A stretch of 13,909 bases of DNA, from the NCBI GenBank assembly GCA_030630935.1, contig DAOVMD010000029.1, forward strand, positions 1 to 13,909, read 5' to 3'. Below, piece after piece: positions 2,922 to 13,733 of the stretch. Under the pieces are notes generated by a model. That model was not told where the DNA came from. It worked only from the letters and a program-made list of their open reading frames with translations, and made no database searches. A program made the translations under genes and the position numbers. The DNA comes from Candidatus Mcinerneyibacteriota bacterium. Lineage in GTDB: Bacteria > AUK180 > JAQVHJ01. Position 1 is the first letter of the stretch. Every line of letters begins with the position of its first letter.

Positions 2922-3614
2922 ATGAAAGTCGCAGGAGTTATTCTTTCAGCAGGAAGTTCAACAAGATTTGGACAAGAGATTGAAAAGCAATACTTATCTC
3001 TTATGTCAAAGCCTATCATTATTTACTCAGTAGAAGTATTTGAAGCTCTCGCTGAAATTTCTGATTACGTAGTTGTCGCAAAAGAAGAGAAATTTAATTA
3101 TCTCAAAAAAGATATTCTGGCCAAATATAATTTAACAAAGTTTCGGGGCTTGGTACCCGGGGGGCACTTGAGGGCAAACTCGGTAATGAACGCATTGAAT
3201 TTCCTGAAGAAATTTAATCCTGATTATGTCCTGATTCATGATGCTGCAAGGCCATTGATAACAAGTGAGTTTGTTAAGAAGATCCTTACTGAAACAATTA
3301 ATCATTCAGCTTGTGTTCCGGGGTTAAGAGTAACTGATACCGTAAAGATCACGGATGTCGAGAATTACATTGAAGACACCCTGAACCGGAATAGCCTTTA
3401 TGCTGTTCAAACCCCGCAAGGTTTTAAGTTTGACCTTTTACTCAGGGCATACCTTCGTGGAATGACTGAGGGTTTTGAAGGTACAGACGACGCTTCATAT
3501 ATTGAAAGGATAAACGAGAAAGTAAAAATAATTGACGGGCTATACTCAAATATTAAGATAACATATCCGAAAGATATTGAAATCGCTAAGATTTTAATGA
3601 AGGAGAAGGAATGA
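2922..3614 (+). CDS. ispD: 2-C-methyl-D-erythritol 4-phosphate cytidylyltransferase IspD
   Basis: IspD transfers CMP from CTP to 2-C-methyl-D-erythritol 4-phosphate, the third step of the non-mevalonate (MEP) isoprenoid pathway, in the cytoplasm. The 230 residues are typical. The nucleotide-binding loop SAGSSTRFG (9-17) supplies R15, and K22 in EKQY is the second catalytic basic residue. PGGHLRANSV (79-88), IHDAARP (105-111), TDDAS (188-192) and the substrate-binding ITYPKD near 213-218 are all in the expected order. The gene begins 5 bases after disA, with a weak GAGGA 11 bases upstream, and ends in an ATGA overlap with the next gene. No ispF follows, although the two are often adjacent or fused elsewhere. 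The identification is secure. Confidence 0.95.
   Translation: MKVAGVILSAGSSTRFGQEIEKQYLSLMSKPIIIYSVEVFEALAEISDYVVVAKEEKFNYLKKDILAKYNLTKFRGLVPGGHLRANSVMNALNFLKKFNPDYVLIHDAARPLITSEFVKKILTETINHSACVPGLRVTDTVKITDVENYIEDTLNRNSLYAVQTPQGFKFDLLLRAYLRGMTEGFEGTDDASYIERINEKVKIIDGLYSNIKITYPKDIEIAKILMKEKE
3600..3610 (+). promoter_or_regulatory. Strong ribosome binding site before the secreted propeller gene
   Basis: AAGGAGAAGGA lies directly before tandem ATG codons at 3611 and 3614. AAGGAG (3600-3605) is 5 bases from the first and 8 from the second, so the second start is equally good. The site lies inside the end of ispD. Independent loading is possible in addition to ATGA coupling. Confidence 0.6.
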
Positions 3615-6379
3615 TGAAAAATCTTAAACTGAAATTTATTTTTTTAATGCTTCTAATTCCAATCTTCACATTTGCCGAGTTGGAAGTTATTCCAAACCCA
3701 TTTAACAGTGATTCTGAAACCACCACGATTATCTTTACTACACACCAAGAGGCAGATGTTACGATTGGGATTTATAATACGGATGATATATTAATAAGAA
3801 GATTATATTCAGCATTTGTTTCGACAGGAACTATTTCAATTGAATGGGACGGACGAAATGATTATTCTGGCTTAGTTGAAAAGGGTGCATATACAGTAAA
3901 AGTTTCTAAAGATCAATATCCTGCCCTTGCAATACCTTATGGTTCTAATTCGCATTATGGTCAGGATACTGCATATAACAAAGGACGGATTGCAATTGCC
4001 AACGCTCTCGGGCATCAGGTCGAAATATTCTCAAGGCATGGCCAACTCTTAGGACGCTATGGAAAATACGGAACAGAAGTCGGTGAATTTTATTTCCCGC
4101 AGGGAATAGCAATGGACGATGATTCAAACCTGTTTATTTCAGATGCCTCCGGAAGAATTCAAAGATTTAATTATACTTCCTTTAATGTCATTGTTTCAGG
4201 ATTGAATAATACAAGGGGAATGGATTATTTTAGCACATCCCTTTACGTAAGTACTAATTTAGGAATACATAAATATAATAATTTAGGTGGCCCATTAGCT
4301 CAAACAGGTGTTTTAGGAGATATCCCCGATCTATGCGCCTATAAAATTCCAATGTTCACTGAAACATGGGTTTATTATTTACGTAATGATGGTCCCGGCA
4401 GCCCGGTTCTTTTTAAGATTGAAGATCAGGGTGCAGCATTTGGGGCTCCGATTGTCCTGCCTTCAACAACCTTAACCGATCCGCATGCAAAATGGGCCAG
4501 CGTATCGTATGACCAAAGAAACGAATTAGTTTATCTTCTTTATACAAATGAATCTGATAATAAATTCGGCATCTGGGTTTACAATCCAACAACTGACCTA
4601 ATTATAGATAAATTTGAAATTCTCCAGATATCCACTACAGGTCTCAGCATTGCAGTTGAAAATAGCTCTTGTGCACACATGCCTTCGGATAATAATTCAT
4701 TATGGGTACCGGGGGCTAATGTTCTAAATGAATTTGTTCATGAACCTATATCAAATCCCGGAGCACTTAATATTAACACTGTATTCGGCAATTCATCAAT
4801 ATTAATGTTATGGCCAGGGGACATTGAAGTAAGCCCATCAGGATTGGTACTTGCTATTGATAGAGGGGCTTATCCGCAAGCTAAATTTATTTTTCCAAAT
4901 TTCATAGATGCAGAAGATATTGATGTCCTTACCGATTTAGGAACCTTTTCCTTCAGTCAATGCGGAACAACAGTTGGTACAATCTGGGAAGCAACGGGAA
5001 TTGCGTCCTTATATAACGTTAATGAAAGCCAAGAACTTTACTATGTTACCGTTGAAAGTAATGATATCTATGCCAATTCAGATAAATTATACCGATATAA
5101 TGGAGCATTTGAATTTGAAGATAGTTATTTGGATATTAATAATCCGGTTGGATTAACTTCTTTTTATACCTGGCTCTTTACACTTGAGCAGAGCACTTCA
5201 CCCCCAAATAATTACCAAATAGTCGTAATTGATACTCACATTAACTCTTCTATGGCTACCATTGCGACAAAATACAGCTACCTACCCAATTCGGGATTTG
5301 GGGAACCAACTATCACTAACCCTGTTGACATTGCTGTAGATTATATTGGGATTATATATGTTCTTCAAGAAGAGGAGGTTCATCAATTCAGAATGATTCC
5401 TGAAGGTGAGAGCATTTCAATTGTTTATATCACTGACTTACAACTTCCCTCAGAATTCGGTAATGATTTTTCTGCAATTGCAGTTGATAGCTTTGGGAAT
5501 ATTTATGTCTATAACGATTTTAATGGCAGAATTTTAATCTTTAATAGAAACGGTGAATTCTTAAAAGATTTAGGTGGGGGCATTGGTTGGGAACCAGGGC
5601 AATTTAACCGGGTTGAAGGAATGGATTTCGATGAAGAAGGTAATCTCTGGATTTCTGATTCCGCTAACCATCGGTTTCAGATTATTGTTTTCAACTATCG
5701 TGGAACTGAACAGGAAACAGTTGTTATAACCGATAATCCGGGAATTCCATTTGTTTCAACTTTCTCAATCTCAAAACCTGAACCTGTAATTGCAGGGGAT
5801 CTTGAAATCACAATTGGTTTTTCTGAGGGTATGGACATGGAATACCCCCCAGAGGTTCTTCTGATTGACGGTAAGTATGGCAACACACATACGGTTACGA
5901 TGAATGAGTTTAAATTAAATAAATGGAGTGGCGACATTACTATCTACCCAAGAACAGGAAACGGAATGGCAACAGTTTTAATTCGAAATGCCAGGGACCT
6001 GGATGGTCATTATATTGTTGATACAGAGAGAAAATTTAAAATCAATACAGACGTATCAGATGTAATCTCAAACTTAACAAATTATCCAAACCCATTCTCA
6101 CCATTAAAGAAACCAACCCGGATTGAATATTACCTTAATCAACACTCTTATGTTACACTTGAGATATTTGACTTGAGCGGGAGACTTGTTCGGAGTCAGA
6201 AATTCTCGCCTGGGCAACTGGGCGGAAGGGAAGGTTTCGAAAATTATTTCGAATGGGACGGCAGAACTGATTCAGGAACTATGATTCAAAATGGTGTCTA
6301 CATTCTTAGGGTGACCGCGAAAGGTTTGAAATCTAGTGAGAAAAAAGTAATAAAACGAAAAATTGCGGTAATGAAATGA
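3611..6379 (+). CDS. Secreted NHL-type beta-propeller protein with FlgD/Ig-like domains at both ends
   Basis: This is an exported protein of unknown function. Residues 1-22 form a signal peptide (basic start, hydrophobic core, likely cut after FTFA). Residues about 27-100 look like a FlgD-type Ig-like domain (NPFN at the start, IEWDGRND at 77-84, then GAYTVKV). Residues about 115-700 resemble NHL/six-bladed propeller repeats, clearest at 124-186 (FPQGIAMDDDSNLFISD) and about 655-700 (VEGMDFDEEGNLWISD). The middle blades are divergent. About 713-815 is another Ig-like domain beginning with ISKPEPVIAGD. Residues 824-922 repeat the FlgD-like theme (NYPNPFSP, FEWDGRTD, NGVYILRV) and end in KRKIAVMK, reminiscent of type IX secretion sorting tails. 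It overlaps ispD and the following barrel gene by 4 bases each. Cell-surface or secreted location is inferred, and the domain calls are from motif reading only. Confidence 0.72.
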   Translation: MMKNLKLKFIFLMLLIPIFTFAELEVIPNPFNSDSETTTIIFTTHQEADVTIGIYNTDDILIRRLYSAFVSTGTISIEWDGRNDYSGLVEKGAYTVKVSKDQYPALAIPYGSNSHYGQDTAYNKGRIAIANALGHQVEIFSRHGQLLGRYGKYGTEVGEFYFPQGIAMDDDSNLFISDASGRIQRFNYTSFNVIVSGLNNTRGMDYFSTSLYVSTNLGIHKYNNLGGPLAQTGVLGDIPDLCAYKIPMFTETWVYYLRNDGPGSPVLFKIEDQGAAFGAPIVLPSTTLTDPHAKWASVSYDQRNELVYLLYTNESDNKFGIWVYNPTTDLIIDKFEILQISTTGLSIAVENSSCAHMPSDNNSLWVPGANVLNEFVHEPISNPGALNINTVFGNSSILMLWPGDIEVSPSGLVLAIDRGAYPQAKFIFPNFIDAEDIDVLTDLGTFSFSQCGTTVGTIWEATGIASLYNVNESQELYYVTVESNDIYANSDKLYRYNGAFEFEDSYLDINNPVGLTSFYTWLFTLEQSTSPPNNYQIVVIDTHINSSMATIATKYSYLPNSGFGEPTITNPVDIAVDYIGIIYVLQEEEVHQFRMIPEGESISIVYITDLQLPSEFGNDFSAIAVDSFGNIYVYNDFNGRILIFNRNGEFLKDLGGGIGWEPGQFNRVEGMDFDEEGNLWISDSANHRFQIIVFNYRGTEQETVVITDNPGIPFVSTFSISKPEPVIAGDLEITIGFSEGMDMEYPPEVLLIDGKYGNTHTVTMNEFKLNKWSGDITIYPRTGNGMATVLIRNARDLDGHYIVDTERKFKINTDVSDVISNLTNYPNPFSPLKKPTRIEYYLNQHSYVTLEIFDLSGRLVRSQKFSPGQLGGREGFENYFEWDGRTDSGTMIQNGVYILRVTAKGLKSSEKKVIKRKIAVMK

Positions 6380-9333
6380 TGAAGGCAATAAAAACAATTC
6401 TGATTAGTCTTATTCTCCTTGCTGCTGCTTCATTAAATATATTCTCTGAAGAAGGCGGTATAGTCGATCCTCTCTATAACCTTGCCGGGAGTGCAAGAAT
6501 CCTTGCAATGGGCAATGCATTTGTCGGGTTAGCTGATGAGCCAGGGGCAATGTTTCATAATCCTGCCGGGCTTACACAGTTAAAGATGAGAGGTATAATT
6601 TTTGAAACTCAAAGTTTTAATGATCCATCTATTCAATATACTTCACTTGGTTATGTTGCTCCACTTGGGAAAAAGGGTATATTAAACCTGGGAATTTACA
6701 ATTTATCCGTAACAGGAATTGAAGGAAGAGATGAAGATAATAATATTACGGAAAAATTTTCTTATCAGAAAACCATGACTCTGATAGGTGCGGGCTGGAA
6801 TTGCAAGAAGGAGTTATCAATTGGGAGTAACCTTTTAATTCTAAACGAAAAAATGCTTGAAAAAGAAGCATCGGGATTCGGGGTGAATGTCTCCTTTTTT
6901 TATAGGCCATTTAATGAGTTCACAGTTCAGATTAATGAGGCAAAAGATAAAGCAGATGCTCTCTTGAATTCCATTACTTCAGACCTTTATAAAGACTTAC
7001 ATGAAAAGTTGCGGGAAGGAAAGTTTAGTGAAGTTTTAGATATGTTCCCGGGTGTCCTTTCCATTGACCCGTTAAACCCTAAGGCTATGCATCTGGCAAT
7101 TAAAACTTCGCGAAAGAAGAAATTTCAATTTTCTGATACTTCAATCCAGCCGCTGATTGAATTTAAGAACAATCTCTTTGAAACTGATAATGTAATTGAA
7201 GCTCATTACTGTACATTGATTATTCTGACTTTATTAGAAAAGGATGAAAGGAAGAATATTGATCATCAACTTAAAGAGATTAATAAATCTGTTTTAAAAC
7301 TCATTAATGATAAAGAACAATATATTAATGAATTAATTGAAAACAATGATTGGGATACTGCCTTTTACGAGATTCAGAAAGGCGAAGAAATTACAGGATT
7401 CAAAGCAAGGTTTATAAAGCTCAGGTTTTCATTACGTGATCGGGTCATTAAGAAAAAGGGGAAACATTTCTTAAAGAAGATAGGTTATGAACTTTATAAC
7501 CAGGGTATGAATAACCTTGAAAAGAATCAGGTTAAGGAAGCTCTGATTAAATTTAAAGCTGCCATATTTCTATTCGATAATTTCCTGGATAACAGATTCA
7601 CATCCGGACTCACATTTGAAAATGTTGTCACTCCAAAAATCCGTTTAGACCAAGATTATGATGAGAAACCATTCGCACTTAAGTTTGGAATTGCCTATAA
7701 GTTCAGAACCTTAAACCTAAATTCGTCATTACAGATTGAAAAGACAAAGGAACTTCCAGTTCAGGCATTAATTGGTTTTGAATATCTAATATTTAAAGAA
7801 AGATTAGGATTGCGGTTTGGGTTCAATAAAGACCGGCTCACGGGTGGATTTGGTGTTAACATTAAAAACACAACCGTTGATTATGCCGTTACAGACACGA
7901 AGTTGGGAATAAACCATAAGTTCTCAATTACATATCGATTTGGAAAGGAATATGCAAGGAGTCCAATTGACCTCTTTAACCAGGGCGAACTTTTTTACCA
8001 GGAAAAAAATTATACTGAAGCCATCGCTTCCTGGGAAGAGGCTCTCAAGCTGGACCCGACTTACACCAGACCAAGAGAACGTCTGGTAAAAGTAAATAAG
8101 ATCATTGATAAAAAGGTTAAAGCACTTATGGAGTCGGGTGAGGAGAATTATAGCAACGATAATTTCACGGATGCAATGAAAGCTTTCCGCGAAGTACTCA
8201 CATTCCGGCCAAATAATTTTAGAGCAAATGAATACTTGATAAAATTAGACGCTGCTTCAAGAAAATATATTGCATCACTTGAAGTTGAAGCAAAAACCGC
8301 GATCGCTTCAAACGATATTCAAACTGCTCTCTTGAAATTAAATGAAATCTTGGAGATTGATCCAGCGAGAAAAGATATTATATCAAAATTAAATTCGTTA
8401 AAGAAACTGAGAAATATTGAGATTAATAAAGGCCTTGCAGAAGTTGAACAGCTTATCAAGAGCGGAAATGATGCTCAAGCACTTGAAATGATGGAGATGC
8501 TCTTGAAACTTGACCCGCAAAATAAAGTTTTAGCGAAGAAATTTACTAAAATAAAAAATGAAATTGTGCTAAAAACAGAGACTCAACAGACTCTTGCAAG
8601 CATCGACCACTTATTAGAAGCCAGGAGATTCAATGAGGCTCTGAGCCAGGTGGATAACTTAATAATAAAGACCGGGGAAATCGAACAGCTTATAAAAAAG
8701 CGCTCAGAAATTCATGATGCAAAATCAAAATATTTAAAGGAATTATTAATTAAAGCAAATCTCATTGTCTCAAATAAAAATTATTCAAAGGCAATTGAAC
8801 TTTACGAACAAGTTCTTAAGGTTGACCCTGACAATTTAGAGGGACAGGAACAATTATTTGAATTAAGGAATAAATCTGTTGATTCCGGAAAATTGAGGGC
8901 GTATCTATCTTCTGCACAGAATTTTTTTAAAAAGAAGGAATATGTAAAGGCTAAGAAGTATGTTGAAAAAGCACTCCAGCTTGACCCTGGTAATGCAGAA
9001 GCAAAATTATTAAAGTCCAGGTTAAACAAACTTTCAACTGCATCATTTGCCGCATTCGTGGAAGAAGCAGAGCAGAACCTGAGTGCTGGGAATATTGAAT
9101 CAGCCATTGATTACTGGGCGCAAGCTTTAAGGATTAAACGTGATTCCAAAATTAAGAAGAAGCTTGTTGAAAATGTTATTAATCTTGGAATTCAATATTA
9201 TAGAAAGGAGGAATTGAAGAAAGCCCTGGAAGTTTGGAAGATAGGTTTACAATTCGACCCAACGAATAAAGAGCTTCGGGATAACATCAAAAGAGTACAA
9301 ACGGAACTGGAGAAACTGGAAAATATTAAATGA
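6376..9333 (+). CDS. PorV/UPF0164-like outer-membrane barrel protein with TPR-like insert and long TPR tail
   Basis: An envelope protein of 985 residues. A signal peptide spans about 1-24. Residues 30-178 resemble the start of PorV/UPF0164-type barrels: SARILAMGNAFVGLADEPGA followed by HNPAGL, then alternating amphipathic strands. About 181-408 is a charged, helix-rich stretch with TPR-like pieces (204-240 and 371-407). Barrel-like strands resume at about 409-526 (FALKFGIAYKF, ALIGFEYLIF, LGLRFGFN, FSITYRFG). From 530 to the end are about nine TPR-like units, typically ending in LDP or IDP (for example EALKLDPTY, EQVLKVDPDN, EKALQLDPGN). This predicts a barrel with a periplasmic or surface TPR scaffold, which is unusual. 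The tandem ATG at 6376/6379 overlaps the preceding stop, and the stop overlaps the cyclase start. Function is unknown; T9SS PorV-like shuttle or assembly roles are conjecture. Confidence 0.72.
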   Translation: MMKAIKTILISLILLAAASLNIFSEEGGIVDPLYNLAGSARILAMGNAFVGLADEPGAMFHNPAGLTQLKMRGIIFETQSFNDPSIQYTSLGYVAPLGKKGILNLGIYNLSVTGIEGRDEDNNITEKFSYQKTMTLIGAGWNCKKELSIGSNLLILNEKMLEKEASGFGVNVSFFYRPFNEFTVQINEAKDKADALLNSITSDLYKDLHEKLREGKFSEVLDMFPGVLSIDPLNPKAMHLAIKTSRKKKFQFSDTSIQPLIEFKNNLFETDNVIEAHYCTLIILTLLEKDERKNIDHQLKEINKSVLKLINDKEQYINELIENNDWDTAFYEIQKGEEITGFKARFIKLRFSLRDRVIKKKGKHFLKKIGYELYNQGMNNLEKNQVKEALIKFKAAIFLFDNFLDNRFTSGLTFENVVTPKIRLDQDYDEKPFALKFGIAYKFRTLNLNSSLQIEKTKELPVQALIGFEYLIFKERLGLRFGFNKDRLTGGFGVNIKNTTVDYAVTDTKLGINHKFSITYRFGKEYARSPIDLFNQGELFYQEKNYTEAIASWEEALKLDPTYTRPRERLVKVNKIIDKKVKALMESGEENYSNDNFTDAMKAFREVLTFRPNNFRANEYLIKLDAASRKYIASLEVEAKTAIASNDIQTALLKLNEILEIDPARKDIISKLNSLKKLRNIEINKGLAEVEQLIKSGNDAQALEMMEMLLKLDPQNKVLAKKFTKIKNEIVLKTETQQTLASIDHLLEARRFNEALSQVDNLIIKTGEIEQLIKKRSEIHDAKSKYLKELLIKANLIVSNKNYSKAIELYEQVLKVDPDNLEGQEQLFELRNKSVDSGKLRAYLSSAQNFFKKKEYVKAKKYVEKALQLDPGNAEAKLLKSRLNKLSTASFAAFVEEAEQNLSAGNIESAIDYWAQALRIKRDSKIKKKLVENVINLGIQYYRKEELKKALEVWKIGLQFDPTNKELRDNIKRVQTELEKLENIK

Positions 9334-10727
9334 AAATAAGTATCAGGTTTAAAATTTCATCATTGATAATTCTTTTAATCAGTCTTCTGATGGTAACGAT
9401 ATCTACTATTGTTCTTAAAGACCAGAGCATCATTCTGAAGGAGGAAATGCGGAAAGCAGCCGAGGCAATTGCGAGGAACTTATCAGCGAATGCAAAGGAA
9501 TCCCTTCTTCTTGAGCGTTATCTTGATCTGGATTCCCTTGTATTTGAAGCTCAAAAAAATGTCGGGGTTAAATTCATTGCAATTGCAGATAAAAAAAATA
9601 TTATTCGAGCACACACCGATATAAATTTAAGAAATAAAGAATATAAAAACCCCAATAATATTAGGATAAATGAAAAGGATAATTCACTTGAATACCTCGA
9701 TAAAGATAAGAACTTGAATTATTATCTGTCCTTCCCTATTAAGAAAAAAGGTAAGTTACTCGGAACAGTTTACCTCGGGTATTCGCAGCAGCATATATTA
9801 ACAGCTCTGAAGAAAGCTGAAAAGAAAATGATTTTCTTTACAATATCTTCAATTCTGTTTGGAATACTGGGGGCATTGATGCTCAGTTCTTATATATCAA
9901 AACCAATTAAACTTTTAGCAAAGGGCACAAGAGAGATTGCAAATGAAAACTTTGAATATAGAATTCCTATTAAAACAAATGATGAGATCGGGGATCTGAC
10001 AATCGCATTTAACCAGATGGCAAATGACCTACAGCATAAAGAATTGATTAAGTCCGCATTTAAACGGTATGTCTCATCACAGGTCCTTGACCAGATAATT
10101 GCTGACCCTGATTTCTTAAAAAAATTAGGTGGAGAAAGGAAAATCCTAACCGTGCTCTTCTCAGATATTAGAGGGTTCACACCATTATCGGAAGCTCTTG
10201 CTCCGGAAGAAGTTATTACTCTCCTGAACGACTACCTCGATGGAATGACAGAGATTATCTTCTTAAATAACGGGATCATTGATAAATTCATTGGTGATGC
10301 AATCATGGCTGTCTGGGGTGCATTACAAGTTAATATGACCCCGGCTGAACAAGCCTATTATGCCGTAAAGGCTGCAGTCGAAATGCAGGAGAAATTAACT
10401 GAATTACAGGTTAAGTGGACCGCGCTGGGAAGGAAAACCGTCCAGGTCGGAATTGGAATTAATACAGGTGCAGTCGTTGTCGGGAATATCGGGTCAACCC
10501 AGAGAATAGAATATACTGTCATTGGCGATAATGTCAATATCGCTGCAAGAATGGAAGAAAATGCAAAACCGGGACAAACGCTAATTTCTGATACTACTTA
10601 TAACTTAATACAACATTATGTGAAAGCAAATAAATTAGAGCCTATGAAAGTTAAGGGTAAATCAAAACTACTTCATGTCTATGAAGTATTAGAATTTAAA
10701 ACAGGATTTGATCAAGAGAAAATATGA
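9330..10727 (+). CDS. Membrane-bound class III adenylate cyclase with periplasmic sensor and HAMP domain
   Basis: The enzyme makes cAMP from ATP. Layout: transmembrane helix 1 (about 9-29), extracytoplasmic sensor region (about 32-165, containing VGVKFIAIADKKN, cache-like in style), transmembrane helix 2 (about 167-188), HAMP domain (about 187-240, with P192 and NDEIGDL at 217-223), then the catalytic domain (about 265-455). Metal-binding aspartates are D279 (FSDIRGFT) and D323 (KFIGDAIMAV). The substrate-selecting pair is K319 and T396 (EYTVIGD), the class IIIb adenylate pattern. N403 and R407 (NIAAR) are the transition-state residues. All catalytic residues are present, so it should be an active homodimer. 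It starts in an ATGA overlap with the barrel gene and ends in one with the permease gene, suggesting that an envelope signal is converted to cAMP. The sensor ligand is unknown. Guanylate cyclase activity is less likely. Confidence 0.93.
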   Translation: MKISIRFKISSLIILLISLLMVTISTIVLKDQSIILKEEMRKAAEAIARNLSANAKESLLLERYLDLDSLVFEAQKNVGVKFIAIADKKNIIRAHTDINLRNKEYKNPNNIRINEKDNSLEYLDKDKNLNYYLSFPIKKKGKLLGTVYLGYSQQHILTALKKAEKKMIFFTISSILFGILGALMLSSYISKPIKLLAKGTREIANENFEYRIPIKTNDEIGDLTIAFNQMANDLQHKELIKSAFKRYVSSQVLDQIIADPDFLKKLGGERKILTVLFSDIRGFTPLSEALAPEEVITLLNDYLDGMTEIIFLNNGIIDKFIGDAIMAVWGALQVNMTPAEQAYYAVKAAVEMQEKLTELQVKWTALGRKTVQVGIGINTGAVVVGNIGSTQRIEYTVIGDNVNIAARMEENAKPGQTLISDTTYNLIQHYVKANKLEPMKVKGKSKLLHVYEVLEFKTGFDQEKI

Positions 10728-12557: not shown

Positions 12558-13733
12558 ATGAAATCTGAAGAATTTTTAAATGCTCTTCTTGCAAGACTTA
12601 ATTTTGATGAGAAGAACTTAGAGCTGATTAAGGAAAAAATAAATAATACAAAAGCTTTAGCAAGAACTACGATTTATAAAAATTTATTGAATATGCTGAC
12701 ACACTTGAATGTCTCAAATAAGATAGCAAAGGAACATTTTGAAAGATGTTTCAAGCTTCAAGACGAGTTGAATGCAAAATTAGAGAAACCGGTCTCATTT
12801 AATACTGCTCTAATTGAATACTTCTCCCGATTAAATATGCAGTCGAGTAAACCGGTCATTATAGAATTTGAATTAAGTTCAAAATTAGCTTATAAAAAGA
12901 TTAAAGACAGTGTTACCGGGCTCTGCAATAAAAAATATGGCTATGAGATTCTGAAAAAAGAAGTGGCCCGAACAGCACGATACGGATTAAACTTATCACT
13001 TTTGATAATCGATATTGATGATTTTAAAACCATTAATGAAAAATACAGCCATGAGTTTGGGGATTTACTTCTCAGACATGTTAGTGATATTTTTAAAACA
13101 TGTATAAGGAATATTGATTTGATATATCGAAATGACAGTAATCAATTTGTTTTCATCCTCCCCGAAACACCGGCACTTGGAGCTCTTGAAGTTGGGAACA
13201 GAGTAAGAAAAAAATTGCTCGATGATTATATTACTCCGGATAATAGTGATGCACCGGTAACGGTAAAAGTATCCGGTGGAATTTCGTCTTTTAAAATTGA
13301 TGCTGAAAATATTAATGAGCTGGTTGAATTCGCAATTGAAGCTTTGGTCTCTGCAAAAAATGACGGTGGGAATAAAATATATTTATTCTTCCAGGAAAAA
13401 CGTAGATTCATAAGACTGGATGCTTATTGTAAAGTTGGTTTTCAAGTAGTAGAAGGTAATTCGAGTACAACATTTAGTAAGAATATAAGTGCAGGCGGAC
13501 TTCTATTTGAGAGCGACGCTTTCATCGCATTAAATACCATGATAGAAATCACAATTCAAATACCGGATATCGACTGGATAATTACATCGGTAGGAAGAAT
13601 AATTAGAGTGGAACAACTCCCAAATGGAAAATATGACCTGGGAATTTTCTTTACTGAGATTGATCCGGAAGACCAGAATACAATTCTGAGGTATATTCAG
13701 AATAAAGTTAATCCAAAATTCAATATTTACTAA
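12558..13733 (+). CDS. Degenerate GGDEF domain plus PilZ: probable c-di-GMP receptor
   Basis: A cytoplasmic signalling protein of 391 residues with no membrane segment. Residues 1-110 are helical and of no recognised family. Residues about 112-278 form a GGDEF fold: SVTGLCNKKYG (118-128), then the metal/substrate strand IDIDDFKTIN (151-160) with D152, N160 and the GD at 168-169. The signature loop GG(D/E)EF is replaced by DSNQF at 193-197, so diguanylate cyclase activity should be lost. The product-inhibition I-site RxxD is kept as R184 and D187. Residues about 280-385 are a PilZ domain with both c-di-GMP motifs: RRFIR (282-286, RxxxR) and NISAGG (309-314, NxSxxG). It is therefore likely a c-di-GMP effector with two possible binding sites. 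The output partner is unknown. It has its own strong ribosome binding site. Confidence 0.92.
   Translation: MKSEEFLNALLARLNFDEKNLELIKEKINNTKALARTTIYKNLLNMLTHLNVSNKIAKEHFERCFKLQDELNAKLEKPVSFNTALIEYFSRLNMQSSKPVIIEFELSSKLAYKKIKDSVTGLCNKKYGYEILKKEVARTARYGLNLSLLIIDIDDFKTINEKYSHEFGDLLLRHVSDIFKTCIRNIDLIYRNDSNQFVFILPETPALGALEVGNRVRKKLLDDYITPDNSDAPVTVKVSGGISSFKIDAENINELVEFAIEALVSAKNDGGNKIYLFFQEKRRFIRLDAYCKVGFQVVEGNSSTTFSKNISAGGLLFESDAFIALNTMIEITIQIPDIDWIITSVGRIIRVEQLPNGKYDLGIFFTEIDPEDQNTILRYIQNKVNPKFNIY

Follow-up and report, generated by a model that had tools for sequence, protein, structure and literature searches.

The fold of PorV and FadL has 14 strands and a periplasmic N-terminus. PorV (PDB 6H3I and 8GL6) is the type A carrier of the type IX secretion system (T9SS), and its known system contains no receptor gene. 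Residues 193–199 of Flavobacterium johnsoniae PorV form, as seen by cryo-EM, a periplasmic loop that contacts the chaperone SkpA; SprE is a TPR protein of the Extended Translocon, and type A sorting tails have a conserved lysine near their end (PMC10994853). Shuttles of the PorP/SprF kind are encoded beside their cognate type B substrates (PMC12618676), and PorA of P. gingivalis links the cell surface to PorXY-SigP (PMC7712824).

In the window, by which we mean the whole 13,909-nucleotide stretch of DNA that was analysed, a barrel gene starting with ATG occupies positions 6376–9333 of the forward strand and encodes 985 amino acids. Its product resembles PorV in the 14-strand fold, with the same strand topology maintained across an insert, and PorV is recovered by the sequence profile of the barrel family with an E-value of 2.7e-34. 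It differs from PorV in having a 230-residue insert where PorV has a short periplasmic loop, in its TPR tail, which PorV lacks, and in the receptor gene next to it. The FadL/TodX channels also have 14 strands, an N-terminal hatch and an NPA motif (Z of about 27–32), but they lack the insert, the TPR tail and a sorting-tail partner. A candidate substrate gene directly upstream of the carrier gene recalls the PorP/SprF-like shuttles (PMC12618676), for which neither TPR arms nor a HAMP receptor have been reported, whereas the tail in the window is type A-like. The PorA-PorV-PorXY-SigP system, in which a PorV-binding sorting-tail protein influences an inner-membrane sensor kinase (PMC7712824), resembles the mechanism proposed below, but uses separate genes and an ordinary PorV without a TPR scaffold. 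SprE/PorW likewise places TPRs at the periplasmic face of a translocon that contains PorV, yet it is a separate lipoprotein and is not fused to the barrel.

All segments of the barrel gene are read from the forward strand. Residues 1–25 (positions 6376–6450) look like a signal peptide, and the structural model has a helix at residues 2–20. A hatch-like segment with the NPA motif at residues 62–64 lies ahead of strand 1. The first barrel half comprises strands 1–6 (residues 72–176, positions 6589–6903), as indicated by profile matches, model and superposition, and the second comprises strands 7–14 (residues 408–522, positions 7597–7941), for which BLAST gave additional evidence. The NCBIfam model of the PorV/PorQ family, NF033709, matched residues 35–179 with 74.3 bits (E 1.3e-20), short of its cut-off of 90 bits; the match is split by the insert. 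In BLAST searches, compact relatives of 300–340 amino acids matched residues 39–177 and then directly residues 406–522, with no gap in between.

AlphaFold2, run with a 34-sequence alignment, predicted six strands before the insert and eight after it, helices at residues 181–400 and helical repeats from residue 530. The mean pLDDT was 80.8, with values of about 90 in the barrel strands, mostly 50–80 in the insert and mostly 80–95 in the tail; the pTM was 0.52, and therefore the relative placement of the arms is not reliable. Model residues 24–529 superposed on Flavobacterium PorV (8gl6_F) with Z 32.2 and an rmsd of 4.9 over 285 residues, and the model superposed on E. coli FadL (3pgr) with Z 31.7 and an rmsd of 2.6 over 264 residues. 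In the model, the protein is thus a single closed 14-stranded outer-membrane barrel of the PorV/FadL type that continues across the insert, and it has the 14 PorV-like strands as well as the hatch and NPA motif of FadL transporters. From a compact PorV, which spans about 400 residues and has no additional domains, it departs in length, insert and tail. The sequence-only reading had suggested a PorV-type barrel, split by a helical TPR-like insert and ending in about nine TPRs, with boundaries at about residues 30–178 and 409–526 and repeats up to residue 985. The model, the superposition on PorV and the Pfam TPR matches bear this out, the boundaries being right to within a few residues; the strands on either side of the insert close into one barrel, and the architecture differs from that of compact homologues, which join the halves without a gap. 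Two separate small domains or the absence of a barrel were ruled out by the model and the fold search, and a normal soluble fold, also named in advance as a contrary outcome, failed against the same evidence.

FadL, TodX and TbuX were all close structural matches of the barrel model (Z 27–32). Together with the NPA motif, this similarity would fit a FadL-type protein that conducts or senses hydrophobic compounds; the Cache receptor encoded downstream would respond to the imported ligand, and the TPRs would act as a scaffold. We consider such a function quite unlikely, since PorV has the identical fold and motif and the recurrent sorting-tail gene upstream of the barrel would be left unexplained.

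The helical, TPR-like insert (residues 178–407, about 230 residues; positions 6907–7596), defined by profiles and model, stands where strands 6 and 7 would otherwise be joined by a periplasmic turn. When profiles of both barrel halves were searched in all fetched loci, fewer than about 30 residues separated the halves in most cases. Gaps of at least 90 residues with strong matches to both halves were found only in the window protein (226) and four other genes, three from Candidatus Lindowbacteria (142, 139 and 96) and one from the groundwater genome JACQOF01 (142), which makes five genes from three genomes and two lineages. All five inserts lie at the identical alignment position in the barrel. 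Because the long gap is confined to these five genes, the insert is a rare, derived feature of two lineages. The layout that had been put forward as distinct is therefore rare with respect to the insert but not unique as a whole, since members of the barrel family commonly end in a TPR tail.

The Pfam family TPR_2 was matched by all five inserts, with a best E-value of 1.2e-9 and a weak one of 0.09 for the window's own insert. Folded alone, the insert formed helical pairs (mean pLDDT 76.8), and its best structural matches, short and with Z of about 8 or less, were for the most part TPR or helical-repeat proteins. These weak matches speak against a known non-TPR domain, though not decisively. 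Against a profile of the relatives' inserts, the window insert scored 9.7 bits, compared with a maximum of 7.3 in 921 shuffles, and stretches of the window protein's own TPR tail outscored it with up to 26.5 bits. The barrel tree leaves the window protein unplaced, and a single origin of the window and Lindowbacteria inserts is not established by tree or scores. A single-sequence search of genome contigs gave no relative of the barrel protein; an alignment-based search did find relatives. Of the three Lindowbacteria paralogues, two (L077 and L084) lack a neighbouring HAMP gene: a gene for a regulator-propeller-like protein comes after one of them, and the other is near an integrase.

Aligning the family profile to PorV placed the insertion point at F. 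johnsoniae PorV residues 193–199. As the insert replaces a loop described as periplasmic, it would be periplasmic itself, and the C-terminus would be on the same side because the strand count is even and the N-terminus is periplasmic. Judging from the homologous PorV, both the insert and the C-terminal TPRs should face the periplasm.

The C-terminal TPR-like array (residues 530–985, positions 7963–9330) has about nine repeats according to Pfam, model and periodicity, with Pfam TPRs running from residue 533 to 985. Its period is 51 residues. Of the four insert-bearing relatives, three likewise have this as their strongest period, and in the fourth it ranks second. At 7963–9330 this period of 51 replaces one of 34, and long (30) and short (14) helices alternate in the model. 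Among the C-terminal extensions of barrels, OmpA domains of the peptidoglycan-binding type were present in 5 of 59, instead of or besides TPRs, and CarboxypepD_reg in 4 of 59, which suggests that the barrel family swaps its periplasmic tails.

The gene upstream of the barrel (3611–6379, forward strand) encodes a 922-residue surface protein with NHL/propeller repeats (Pfam NHL, 1.7e-7) that ends in a FlgD-Ig/T9SS type A sorting tail (about 6083–6376; Pfam FlgD_ig, 5.6e-18). The T9SS type A model TIGR04183 matched residues 825–915 of this C-terminus with 35.6 bits, passing its cut-off of 23 bits. A FlgD-Ig sorting-tail gene was found upstream of 37 of 44 TPR-tailed barrels and of 44 of 65 compact barrels; with compact barrels so often having one, the sorting tail does not discriminate between barrel types. 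TIGR04183 was matched at E 0.001 or better by 24 of the 35 tails scanned, and many of the upstream tails end in a KIAVVK-like motif. The translocon protein SprA gave six partial matches on two contigs of the window's genome (best 1.4e-20), all under the cut-off in this fragmented assembly (471 contigs, 80% complete), and exceeded the cut-off in all three same-class genomes tested.

The gene downstream of the barrel (9330–10727, forward strand) encodes a 465-residue inner-membrane receptor with two predicted transmembrane helices centred at residues 20 and 176. A periplasmic sCache_3_2 domain at residues 38–162, a HAMP domain at 185–235 and a class III adenylate/guanylate cyclase domain (Guanylate_cyc) at 273–448 all scored over their Pfam cut-offs, corresponding to the plan transmembrane helix, periplasmic sensor, transmembrane helix, HAMP and output. 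The barrel gene overlaps each of its two neighbours by 4 bp, and the genes of the window are all tightly packed on a single strand, so that adjacency in the window alone means little. One contig edge of the nearest relative's genome (G001) carries the final part of the barrel gene (59% identity) with the same cyclase after it, and the start of the surface-protein gene lies at a different contig edge. The window also holds three kinds of cyclic nucleotide makers within 12 kb on one strand, a DisA-like protein (1798–2916), the cAMP/cGMP-type cyclase (9330–10727) and a GGDEF-like protein (12558–13733).

To compare loci, we mapped which genes lie beside 146 distinct barrel genes. These had been found through their similarity to the window protein and its relatives, and related sequences count repeatedly among them. 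Where the sequence continued for 1.6 kb or more downstream, we counted same-strand HAMP genes no further than 1.5 kb away. Such a receptor followed 30 of the 38 TPR-tailed barrels, none of the 43 compact ones and 1 of the 21 that have a different extension, the last value ruling out that the receptor goes with any C-terminal extension rather than with TPRs. Fisher's test for TPR-tailed versus compact barrels gave p = 3e-15, a value that treats the loci as independent although they are related and Calditrichota are over-represented. A Pfam scan of 46 open reading frames downstream of compact barrels showed no HAMP among the families with at least two matches, so a bias of our own HAMP model against compact loci was rejected as an explanation. 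Taken together, the upstream and downstream counts indicate that the tail-bearing partner is general to the barrel family, whereas the receptor belongs to the TPR-tailed kind. Downstream of three extended barrels that have no HAMP neighbour (L045, L218 and L207), the next genes encode a secreted protein and two proteins resembling ExbD, which suggests an energy-coupled variant.

About six changes of the TPR trait are needed on the barrel tree. One TPR group with receptors (L206 and L217) nests among compact barrels with SH-aLRT support of 94–99, and the pairing of tail and receptor has therefore probably arisen more than once; when TPR tail and receptor were tested by independent pairs, well-supported branches yielded just two such pairs, too few for significance. 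The 30 barrel–receptor pairs span at least 17 family-level groups, plus Zixibacteria and KSB1 genomes.

These distributions bear on two further explanations. The arms could bind peptidoglycan-associated or other envelope proteins and make the barrel a structural anchor, with its neighbours sharing an operon by convenience. The OmpA domains in 5 of the 59 extensions and the density of the window's operon are in line with such a role, which is nonetheless quite unlikely given that the gene order recurs across so many family-level groups and that the receptor is absent beside compact barrels. Alternatively, the protein could be a platform for secretion or surface assembly, a role that the sequence-only reading had raised. 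A PorV-like carrier would then be tied to components of the T9SS by its TPR arms, much as the TPR lipoprotein SprE/PorW and SkpA do in trans, and the receptor would regulate export load without contacting the barrel. The T9SS sorting tail upstream of the barrel gives this earlier proposal part of its support, as do the location of the insert at the PorV loop contacting SkpA and the presence of the TPR protein SprE in the Extended Translocon (PMC10994853). However, HAMP receptors lie beside TPR-tailed and not compact barrels, though compact ones also adjoin sorting-tail genes. As the neighbour that best sets TPR-tailed barrels apart is an inner-membrane HAMP receptor, signalling is favoured over a platform, which we regard as unlikely.

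The receptors vary mainly in their output. Of the 30 scanned, 29 matched HAMP, 26 SpoIIE, 19 HATPase_c_2, 12 sCache_3_2 and 2 a cyclase; SpoIIE was the output in 26, a cyclase in 2 and a histidine kinase in 2, both kinases belonging to the nested TPR group. HAMP follows a transmembrane helix in all, and a second helix lies about 150–180 residues earlier in most, giving a common plan of transmembrane helix, periplasmic domain of about 150 residues, transmembrane helix and HAMP. Since sensor and HAMP are constant while outputs vary, contact between barrel and receptor is most likely periplasmic, if the genes cooperate; a constant sensor with changing outputs would be expected if the barrel touches the periplasmic part of the receptor.

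Building on the closed barrel of the model and on the insert position, TPR tail, sorting tail, receptor domains and conserved gene order computed here, we lean towards a signalling function, in which the barrel protein serves as a PorV-like carrier or anchor whose periplasmic TPR arms relay the state of a surface protein to the downstream receptor. A T9SS-type translocon would export the upstream propeller protein, whose sorting tail would dock on the outer face of the barrel. In the periplasm, the two TPR-like arms formed by the insert and the C-terminal repeats would contact the Cache sensor of the HAMP-cyclase and report to it either the loading of the barrel or the binding or pulling of the surface protein. 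More tentatively, such a route from loaded barrel through TPR arms to a Cache-HAMP receptor with an interchangeable phosphatase, cyclase or kinase output may form a trans-envelope signalling system spread over many phyla, of which the window form, with its second arm, would be the most elaborate.

The occurrence of these barrels between surface-protein and membrane-sensor genes in many unrelated bacteria suggests an undescribed route from the surface to the cell interior. A search of the open-access literature, with subscription papers and preprints outside its scope, returned no paper linking type IX secretion to SpoIIE, and the link appears undescribed there. Reporting from the surface to the cytoplasm in cells of the Gram-negative type is known for only a few systems. 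If the proposal is true, a barrel that unites a surface-protein docking site with a periplasmic scaffold and a genetically linked receptor would offer a compact and testable answer to how this is achieved, in phyla whose cell-surface biology is almost unstudied.
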